Below are positions 12,286 to 32,623 of a DNA stretch of 33,358 nt, in pieces; the stretch's first letter is position 1, and each line of letters opens with the position of its first letter. The translations under genes were made by a program, and so were the position numbers. The DNA comes from Candidatus Zambryskibacteria bacterium RIFCSPLOWO2_01_FULL_35_19. GTDB lineage: Bacteria; Patescibacteriota; Minisyncoccia; Phycocordibacterales; WO2-35-19. The notes beneath the pieces were generated by a model. That model made no database searches and was not told where the DNA came from. It worked only from the letters and a program-made list of their open reading frames with translations. The DNA is taken from the NCBI GenBank assembly GCA_001825335.1, contig MHWA01000004.1:1-33358 (forward strand), read 5' to 3'.

Positions 12286-12303
12286 ATTAAAAACAAAATT
12301 CTA

Positions 12304-12405
12304 GTGGTTCGACAAGCTCACCACATTGAATTTTTATAGTCATTACTCGTTAAAATTTCTTTGCCCTTCGTTTAACTCAGGACACTGAATTTTTATAGTC
12401 ATTAC
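12304..12405. repeat. Diverged tandem repeat with 'TTCGACAAGCTCA' palindrome and duplicated 'TGAATTTTTATAGTCATTAC'
   Basis: gtggttcgacaagctcaccacattgaatttttatagtcattac...cccttcgtttaactcaggacactgaatttttatagtcattac. Confidence 0.75.
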
Positions 12406-12423
12406 ATTCCTTAAAAATTCGTG

Positions 12424-12552: not shown

Positions 12553-12621
12553 AAACAAAATCTCAAATAAATTACTTCAAGAGCATTATCTTTATGACCT
12601 AACGCAGAAACAATGTTTTTT
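12553..12621. ncRNA. Candidate structured RNA hairpin, family 2 copy 2
   Basis: caaataaattacttc [aagagcattatctttatgacctaacgca] gaaacaatgttttttattt; same 28-nt apical sequence as 5930-5992 on a different AT-rich stem. Confidence 0.55.
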
Positions 12622-12633
12622 ATTTTTTTGGCC

Positions 12634-12747
12634 CCAAAACTAAAATAGTTCTTGAATGAGATTCCGGAACCTGTGAAAAGGTGAGGACAAAGAAATTTTT
12701 AGCAAAAAATTTCTGTATTGAATGAAAGAAGCTATTTTAGTTTTTGG
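12634..12747. ncRNA. Candidate structured RNA element, family 1 copy 1
   Basis: Outer stem ccaaaactaaaatag/ctattttagtttttgg; core ttcttgaatgagattccggaacctgtgaaaaggtgaggacaaagaaatttttagcaaaaaattt; abuts the adenosyltransferase stop codon. Confidence 0.75.
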
Positions 12748-13386
12748 TTATCTATAATCAGGAGATTCTTCCATAATACCGACTTTATGATTTGAATATC
12801 GAGCTAGAGCATAAAGAGCACTTGAAAGTCTGTTTAAATAAGCTTTGGTTTGCTTGCTTACATTACCTGCCGATACTTTGGCGGAATCCTCTTTTGAATC
12901 AGAATTCAAAAGTGTTGGTTGAGAAATTTCTTCAACAACAGCGATGGTTCTTCTCTCTGCTCTCCTAGCGATAGTGCGAGCAATATCAAATATAGCTCCA
13001 AGTCCAGCTCCTCCCAGTTGCCATTTGGTTATATCTGATGAGCCACCAGATATAAAGAAAGATTTTATTGGTGGCAATTCTTTTTCAATACCGTCCACAA
13101 TCTCTTCAAGCTCTTTTACCTTATCTTCAGTGATAGTTTTTGGAGCTCCGGCTAGTTCTGCTTGAATGATAAAAAGATTTTTTTGTATATTGTGGATTAT
13201 TTCAGCCAAACTTGTCTCACCCAATTTATAACCAAGATGCACCGCTTGCACCTTACAAAGCCCTAAAAATGAATTTATTTCATCCAAGCTACCCAAAGCT
13301 TCCGCGATGTTTGAGCTTTTTGAAATCCTTTGGTCACAACTAAAAGTTTTAGTTGTTCCATCATCTCCTTTTTTAGTGTAAAGCAT
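12748..13386 (-). CDS. ATP:cob(I)alamin adenosyltransferase (PduO type)
   Basis: MLYTKKGDDGTTKTF, GSLDEINSFLGL, KSFFISGGS, ARTIARRAERR, LNRLSSALYALARY. Likely ATG at 13386 rather than 13395. Confidence 0.93.
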   Translation of the reverse strand: MLYTKKGDDGTTKTFSCDQRISKSSNIAEALGSLDEINSFLGLCKVQAVHLGYKLGETSLAEIIHNIQKNLFIIQAELAGAPKTITEDKVKELEEIVDGIEKELPPIKSFFISGGSSDITKWQLGGAGLGAIFDIARTIARRAERRTIAVVEEISQPTLLNSDSKEDSAKVSAGNVSKQTKAYLNRLSSALYALARYSNHKVGIMEESPDYR

Positions 13387-13451
13387 AGTACTCACTTTAT
13401 ACCATAACTAAATATTTTTGCCAGAAGCCAAAAAACCGATGAGTTCCCTAA

Positions 13452-31106: not shown

Positions 31107-31712
31107 CTATTCAAGGAATCCATCCAAGTTTACATCATACAAAATCTGTTCGGCAATTAAACGATAATCTATAAGTTCATTATCCTTAAACCAATGTTTT
31201 ATTTCTTTTTCAGATTCTTCAGATGTGCCCGATGCGTGAATCAAATTTCTAACTGCTCTACCATCAGTGTCAGCCATTATGTATGAATCTAAAACATAAT
31301 CACCCCTTATGGTGCCCACATCGGAACTTCTTGGTTCAGTACCCCCAACTATCTTACGAACTAATTCGGTTGAATGAGCTCCCTGCCATACCATAGCCAC
31401 CACCGGACCAGAAGTCATATATTTTTTTAATTTTTCTAAAATAATTGCCGTGATTTCTAAAGGATCTTCTGTTGGTAATTTTTCTCCTTTCTCTCTAGCA
31501 TTTTTAATTCTTTTCTCTCCTGTTATCCTTCGCCATTCTGGATCTAAAGTGTAATGTTTTTCTATATGTTCTTCGGTTGGCAAACACATTTTCAAAGCCA
31601 CCAACTTTAATCCTGGCCTTTCCAATCTTTTAATAATTTCACCAATAAGAGTCCTCTGAACCCCATCTGGCTTGATGACTACTAAAGTTCTTTCTGTTTT
31701 TGGATGATTCAT
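31107..31712 (-). CDS. ndk: Nucleoside diphosphate kinase with internal insertion
   Basis: ERTLVVIKPDGVQRTLIGEIIKRLERPGLKLVALKM; GPVVAMVWQG; DVGTIRGDY; NLIHASGTSEESEKEI. Likely ATG at 31712. Confidence 0.95.
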   Translation of the reverse strand: MNHPKTERTLVVIKPDGVQRTLIGEIIKRLERPGLKLVALKMCLPTEEHIEKHYTLDPEWRRITGEKRIKNAREKGEKLPTEDPLEITAIILEKLKKYMTSGPVVAMVWQGAHSTELVRKIVGGTEPRSSDVGTIRGDYVLDSYIMADTDGRAVRNLIHASGTSEESEKEIKHWFKDNELIDYRLIAEQILYDVNLDGFLE

Positions 31713-31722
31713 ATTATTATGA

Positions 31723-31829
31723 GTCAAAAAATAGTTCTTGAGCGAAATTCCGGAAGCTGTGAAAAGCTGAGGACAAAGAAATTTTTAGCAAAAAATTTGC
31801 TGTTAGAGCAAAAGAAGCTATTTTTTGAC
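31723..31829. ncRNA. Candidate structured RNA element, family 1 copy 2
   Basis: Outer stem gtcaaaaaatag/ctattttttgac; core ttcttgagcgaaattccggaagctgtgaaaagctgaggacaaagaaatttttagcaaaaaattt, near-identical to 12634-12747. Confidence 0.75.
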
Positions 31830-31849: not shown

Positions 31850-32623
31850 TTATTTTGTTAATATTTCAATCTTACCATCATACCCCATAGCAACCGTATG
31901 TTCAAAGTGGGCTGACAAGGACTTATCTCGAGTGATAAAGGTGTAGCCATCAGAGAGCTTTTTTATATCTCTACTACCCAAAGAAAACATCGGTTCAATA
32001 GCGATAACCAGCCCCTCTTTAAGCTCCGGCCCTTCACCGCGATTGGCTTTATTTGGCACATATGGCTCTTCATGCACACTGTAGCCAACCCCATGACCTG
32101 ACAATCCTTCAACAACCCCAAAACCATATTTAATAGCTACTTGCATAATAGCATCTCCTATGTCTCCAATATGTCCATGAAGACGCATAGCATTAATGCC
32201 TTTATCTAAAGCTTCTTTAGTCGCTCTCATTAATTCTTCAGCTCTCTTATCTATCTTACCTACTGGCACAGTAATAGCAGCATCGGTTATAAGTCCTTTA
32301 TAGGTAAGTCCGAGGTCTAGGGTAACAATATCTCCTTCAAACAAAATACGGCCTCCACCATCATTTGGAATACCATGCACTATTTCTTCGTTTATAGAAA
32401 CACAAAGAGAAGCGGGATAAGGTTTTTTAGCATCATAAGGCTGATAACCTAAAAAAGAAGCCGTGCCCCCAGCTTCATCAATAAGTCCTTCAGCATAAGT
32501 ATTGAGAGCGTCAGTTTTAACCCCTGATTTAACTTTTTTAGCCACTTCTTTCAAAATCCTTGCATGAATTTTGCCCCCCTCTCTCATTATGGCTATCTCT
32601 TCTTCTGTTTTGTATTTGATCAT
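31850..32623 (-). CDS. map: Methionine aminopeptidase type I
   Basis: VSINEEIVHGIPNDG, VTLDLGLTYKGLITDAAITV, GLSGHGVGYSVHEEPYVPN, EPMFSLGS. Confidence 0.97.
   Translation of the reverse strand: MIKYKTEEEIAIMREGGKIHARILKEVAKKVKSGVKTDALNTYAEGLIDEAGGTASFLGYQPYDAKKPYPASLCVSINEEIVHGIPNDGGGRILFEGDIVTLDLGLTYKGLITDAAITVPVGKIDKRAEELMRATKEALDKGINAMRLHGHIGDIGDAIMQVAIKYGFGVVEGLSGHGVGYSVHEEPYVPNKANRGEGPELKEGLVIAIEPMFSLGSRDIKKLSDGYTFITRDKSLSAHFEHTVAMGYDGKIEILTK

Follow-up and report, generated by a model that had tools for sequence, protein, structure and literature searches.

A dispersed palindromic repeat family with a three-way-junction core in Patescibacteria

Described palindromic repeats and two copies in a reduced genome

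The palindromic elements of Rickettsia (RPEs) are hairpin-forming repeats of ~105–150 bp that lie both between genes and in frame within conserved protein genes, with no known transposase, and palindromes in protein-coding sequence have been described as a trait of Rickettsia (and Wolbachia). The RPEs (Ogata 2000, 2002) and the Wolbachia palindromic repeats (Ogata 2005) are considered here as PMC10969869 and PMC2229807 describe them, and RPEs are said to lose their repeat identity over time (PMC6649704). Long near-perfect inverted repeats are tolerated in conserved open reading frames of nematomorph mitochondria as well, where they are not described as one dispersed repeat (PMC6649704). Two further groups of bacterial repeats are relevant: REP sequences, which are palindromes of 20–40 bp with an unpaired GTAG/CGTC end tag (PMC3733652), and MITEs (Correia/NEMIS, ERIC, RUP, BOX and SPRITE, the last of which resembles a terminator), which are small and non-autonomous, and whose ends are self-complementary and whose RNA folds stably.

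In this study we analyse a window of 33,358 nucleotides from Candidatus Zambryskibacteria, the whole of the stretch of DNA that was presented, belonging to a genome (G000) of 510 kb, a reduced size as in candidate-phyla bacteria. A preliminary description had reported two elements of ~110 nt in this window, with almost the same core, and both are found where it placed them and are matched by our covariance model. Copy 1 is a palindrome at 12631–12749 on the plus strand, of which the model matches 12638–12742, leaving 7 more arm positions per side. Its outer left arm, AACTAAAATAG-TTCTT (12638–12653), pairs with the right arm, AAGAA-G-CTATTTTAGTT (12726–12742), around a single bulged G at 12731. 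The next segment, GA-AT-GA-GAT (12654–12662), would pair with 12717–12725 in a helix that includes two tandem G.A steps; only the AT/AT and GAT/ATT pairs of this helix are counted, the G.A steps being our reading by eye. The side hairpin of the three-way junction follows (12663–12687; TCC..GGA and ACCT..AGGT, with an internal loop GGA/GA), and then the apical hairpin (12691–12714; AGAAATTTT, loop TAGCAA, AAAATTTCT), whose 20-bp core, AAATTTTTAGCAAAAAATTT, is seen again in related hairpins throughout the order. Copy 2 lies at 31723–31829 on the same strand (model match 31724–31828), and its inner hairpin, AGCT..AGCT at 31755–31768, is compensatory to the ACCT..AGGT of copy 1. The inner hairpins (ACCU/AGGU against AGCU/AGCU) and the outer stems, which differ and yet are paired in both copies, are as first claimed.

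Each copy had also been placed 3' of a minus-strand gene, which we confirm. The stop codon of the cobalamin adenosyltransferase gene (12748–13395, minus strand, Pfam PF01923) adjoins copy 1 within a few bases, and that of a second minus-strand gene at 31850–32623, which we take, after the preliminary description, to be map (methionine aminopeptidase), is ~20 nt from copy 2; both copies are antisense to these genes. Orthologs of map are present in 8 of 8 relatives. On its other side copy 2 adjoins the start side of an NDK-family gene (31107–31727, minus strand, PF00334). Two other sets of short repeats were seen nearby: left of a tRNA, at 12301–12420 of the window, are one GGTTCGACAAGCTCACC-type sequence and two ctgaatttttatagtcattac-like copies, and the stretch with TGACCTAACGCAGAAACAAT beside copy 1 (~12600–12630) recurs elsewhere in G000 (C15:21395–21426, L006) with 88% identity over ~31 nt.

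The repeat family, its fold and its strand

The view that the elements belong to no known RNA class agrees with the Rfam covariance models, which give no match at the gathering score or at E≤10 at either window copy and nothing above chance at the element in divergent relatives. Membership of a known RNA class was rejected, the weak matches to microRNA precursors being put down to long hairpins. Searching related genomes with a first covariance model, built from 7 congeneric copies, recovered a dispersed family, with matches in 140 of the 397 genomes of the order and often at least 10 per genome. G000 itself has 9 full matches and, at C4:80529, one more copy that has lost its core through an internal deletion, and BLAST and pattern searches found a truncated copy in G005 as well. 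A subfamily with the core GGAGCGACGGCGACGGACGGAGAAAATTTTTAGCAAAAAATTTTCGTG, whose apical hairpin is common to the window copies, is also order-wide (e.g. L010, L013, L016, L028, L087 and L099). Matches outside the order are rare: among 380 genomes sampled from the whole phylum 16 were positive, of which 5 lay outside it. An exact scan for the core pattern in 84,980 GTDB species returned 28 loci, all in candidate-phyla or environmental records, with Nomura-, Zambryski-, Taylor- and Azambacteria and Parcubacteria/Paceibacterota as the only named taxa. No copies were found in the viral, phage and plasmid sequences searched. The elements are a large dispersed multi-copy palindromic repeat family in Patescibacteria. 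Our best reading is that a mobile palindromic repeat of this kind is new for the phylum, and our search of the open-access literature turned up no earlier account of them from candidate phyla, although this does not prove that none exists.

The closest parallel is with the RPEs, which are likewise dispersed hairpin repeats of ~105–150 bp, intergenic and in frame in conserved genes, and for which, as here, no transposase is known. The Patescibacteria family differs in its conserved three-way junction, its variable near-perfect arms and its order-wide rather than one-genus spread, and no sequence relation to the RPEs is seen in so far as the core-pattern scan bears on it. We consider it likely that these repeats of Patescibacteria are mobile, non-autonomous palindromes, RPE-like and with a three-way-junction core. 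Each copy is a hairpin of ~105–150 nt in which long self-complementary outer arms carry the conserved junction, formed by a G.A-rich helix, a side hairpin and an apical hairpin of the UAGCAA type. As an unrelated family throughout an order of ultra-small Patescibacteria, it would indicate that selfish repeats persist even in highly reduced genomes.

The fold is well supported. Compared with dinucleotide shuffles, folding of copy 1 gives z -6.2 and of copy 2 z -4.6, with 0 of 200 shuffles as good. A seed alignment (A2) of 7 full copies from G000 and its sister species G007, collected by BLAST and pattern search without the use of structure, yields a three-way junction made up of an outer stem, a tandem-G.A helix, a side hairpin and an apical hairpin whose loop is of the UAGCAA type, and shows double-sided changes at 16 of 38 pairs against 7.5 ± 1.6 in shuffles. 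A second covariance model gave 85 matches, 83 of them distinct, in loci taken round the earlier matches; in this larger alignment, which is fitted to the model and so leans towards it, double-sided changes are found at 37 of 38 pairs, 94.8% of helix cells are paired, and covariation is 0.80, against 0.21 ± 0.01 in shuffled and no more than 0.14 in slid alignments. The compensatory change described from two copies is therefore borne out by many. The further step, from compensation to selection on the structure, stands in part: the structural constraint is strong, but the outer arms may reflect correction by template switching. Covariation by itself is no proof of a regulatory RNA, a caution that this family illustrates.

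The question concerns the outer arms, whose sequence differs almost from copy to copy and which are yet ~95% paired, with pairing that extends beyond the 16-bp model stem by a median of 5 further positions. Such outer arms recall the terminal inverted repeats of MITEs, except that their sequence differs per copy, and their continued pairing is unlike the loss of identity described for RPEs. Template switching is a published mechanism of palindrome perfection (PMC6649704), and if it rewrote one arm from the other, compensation in the arms would be mutational and selection would act only on the core. The variability of the arms would fit such a process, as would two copies of G000 in which the arms reach into host coding sequence: the copy in uvrC goes on pairing within the gene (ATTGAGcAAATC / GATTTaCTCAAT), and that in rnr has a left arm mirroring the segment that codes for QEL. 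Pure correction, on the other hand, would not predict that GU exceeds AC in the outer helix by 12 to 0 (copies tallied), and the core helices covary as well. We regard an entirely mutational origin as a tentative possibility, somewhat short of an even chance. The GU-biased mismatches favour some selection on the arms, selection and template switching are not exclusive, and either or both may maintain the pairing of the outer arms.

Both the mismatches and the folding are strand-specific. Across the alignment G-U pairs outnumber A-C pairs by 130 to 37, and as RNA the element strand gives the better fold in 81 copies and its complement in 2, the median difference being 5 kcal/mol, from which we infer that the constraint acts on one defined single strand. 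The direction of the neighbouring genes has little to do with it: by a crude ORF caller, on which all our counts of orientation and position rest, 23 copies are antisense to their flanking genes (-E-), 13 are sense (+E+), 14 are convergent and 11 divergent, and the 14 copies in ORFs are 7 sense and 7 antisense. The GU:AC excess is kept in antisense copies (25:8), also in those within ORFs (11:1). Antisense copies thus keep the element-strand fold, as a structure required in the mRNA of the host would not, and the fold is tied to one strand whatever the direction of the host gene. A structure of one strand regardless of host-gene direction might be expected of independent small RNA genes, each with a promoter of its own and spread by duplication, but copies are found well inside housekeeping ORFs, on one strand or the other, most lie directly against stop codons, and no promoter-like excess is present upstream of the window copies; we find this explanation scarcely credible.

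Places beside and within genes

In 44 of the 67 intergenic copies a flanking gene ends with its stop codon no more than 30 nt away, and 14 of 81 copies are inside long ORFs, the majority of which encode recognisable housekeeping proteins. The position beside stop codons, together with the strong RNA-type covariation with GU pairs and the A-run/T-run ends that flank the stem in several genus copies, would suit a structured cis-regulatory or 3'-end mRNA element, such as a bidirectional terminator, a stabiliser or a ligand- or protein-binding RNA. An arm end with a run of at least 5 T is, though, no commoner in intergenic (25%) than in in-ORF copies (21%), and a scan for intrinsic terminators, restricted to loops of 3–8 nt, called neither window copy; termination is therefore at most a side effect, and we reject it as the conserved function. 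Many copies are antisense to the sole known transcript across them and still keep the element-strand fold, others are in frame within ORFs, and the host genes that were found have no common pathway. We judge a cis-regulatory RNA to be quite improbable. Single genus copies could terminate transcription, and a secondary role at the mRNA 3' end, as distinct from the conserved function, is possible.

The copies within genes leave the reading frame open. In the genus they occur in a gene that we take to be uvrC, in G000 (L005) and G007 (L028), and in RNase R, in G000 (L133) and, at two sites, in G006 (L078); in other species they are found in RsmE, DusB, IscS (cysteine desulfurase), Fmt, UvrD and KsgA. 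Judging by eye, we presume that other open-frame copies lie in ComEC (G000), a SpoU-type methylase (G006) and TsaD (G005), and that further copy-bearing ORFs encode TsaD and an M1 aminopeptidase. The RNase R gene of G006 (C13) carries two copies, oppositely oriented and separated by ~420 bp, and the same locus has elsewhere on it a match to a 16S rRNA end.

Where Pfam was run, the host domain matches reach over the inserts or flank them on both sides, and the host proteins have open frames and full-length domains despite the insert, of which SIAQADEPSIANFQQK is an example peptide in UvrD/Fmt. Alignment with solved structures shows ~30–37 extra residues at the element in IscS and KsgA. For IscS, a solved desulfurase aligns at query residues 5–90 and 128–205 with 4 chain residues between, the element being residues 90–124; for KsgA, solved structures align to residue 105 and resume at 139, the element being residues 104–138. 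The desulfurase loop varies in length among the relatives in the order that were read, from 24 to 41 residues between the same motifs as against 49 with the element, and elements therefore settle in tolerant loops. The element-bearing desulfurase (L159) has at residues ~206–243 a second insert of ~30 residues, of other sequence, which is absent from solved desulfurases. Intergenic copies have a modest excess of open frames (1.55 versus 1.17 in dinucleotide shuffles), and open frames may aid the survival of copies that land in ORFs. The family would explain the odd inserts of ~35 residues in core enzymes of Patescibacteria. The nematomorph coding palindromes are similar in being long near-perfect inverted repeats tolerated in conserved ORFs, but the Patescibacteria copies all have one core.

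Presence and absence among relatives, and possible movers

Comparison of sister species shows sites that are filled in some and empty in others. In RNase R, G006 alone has a copy at site 1, and site 2 is filled in G000 and G006 and empty in G001, G002 and G008; the map-NDK site is empty in 4 relatives (G001, G002, G003 and G008), and the cob site is empty in G006. The copies thus differ in presence and absence between sister species, surviving mainly just past stop codons, with ~1/6 of them in frame in genes. Movement is inferred from this distribution because copy number is low and the insertions are old and partly shared, as at RNase R site 2. The expectation of an RNA gene or cis-regulator, raised by the preliminary description, does not hold for elements that occur in both orientations, keep their fold when antisense, lie in frame in ORFs and have empty sites in sister species. 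Its own alternative, a MITE-like repeat free of structural constraint, fits in its first half, the behaviour of a mobile repeat; the constraint is strong, not absent. The family further departs from MITEs in that no fixed terminal inverted repeat or parent IS was found. A clean target-site duplication was looked for at map, cob, uvrC, rnr and iscS and not seen, these sites being too diverged to align between relatives and holding another hairpin in some of them.

No linked transposase or other mobiliser was found. Y1 (IS200-like) transposase genes are common, present in 9 of 9 genus and family genomes, and our elements resemble REP/BIME sequences with their RAYT (Y1) transposases in being imperfect, bulged one-strand palindromes placed 3' of genes (PMC3733652), so that hairpins moved as single-stranded DNA by Y1 transposases would be a conceivable source. 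None of the 30 Y1 loci checked has an element beside it, though, Y1 genes and elements do not co-occur (OR 1.28, p 0.28), and 8 element-rich genomes are without a Y1 match. The elements are moreover multibranched and, at ~105 nt, three times longer than a REP, and the alignment ends without a visible invariant unpaired tetranucleotide such as the GTAG/CGTC tag. We give a REP/RAYT-type origin very little chance.

For the mobile, RPE-like repeat that we prefer, the hairpin would be single-stranded, either as DNA at the replication fork or as RNA, and might be recognised by a host or element-encoded enzyme and so copied or moved, while the arms would drift and stay complementary through hairpin selection, template-switch correction or both. 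A bolder form of this proposal, which we think unlikely, is that of a new class of selfish palindrome spread by the host without a transposase through its single-stranded three-way-junction hairpin, its arms rewritten by template switching from the flanking target and housekeeping proteins remodelled order-wide. With a defined strand, a defined core and many presence/absence sites, the family offers a clean system for asking by what route palindromes move and what keeps their arms complementary.

Other palindromes were seen at some of the same places. At the position of copy 2, the map-NDK region of G007 (C17, L108) has a different long palindrome, GCCGGAAAAAGATTTCAAAAGTC .. GACTTTTGCAAATCATTTTCTGGC. 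The UvrC loop of G003, G004, G005 and G008 (L120, L122, L124 and L125) holds other hairpin-forming inserts, e.g. CCCCTCTC..GAGAGGGG and GTCAAGGTTGAACCTTGAC, and the GTCAAGGTTGAACCTTGAC hairpin is found in the RNase R of G003 too. The idea that elements insert into the loops of hairpins already present, which the simple hairpins of several relatives make attractive at uvrC, was not adopted, since the map-NDK relatives G001, G002, G003 and G008 and the cob relative G006 have no evident palindrome at these places. The other hairpins at the uvrC site indicate that the genus harbours several palindromic repeat families, and suggest that several of them are coding.
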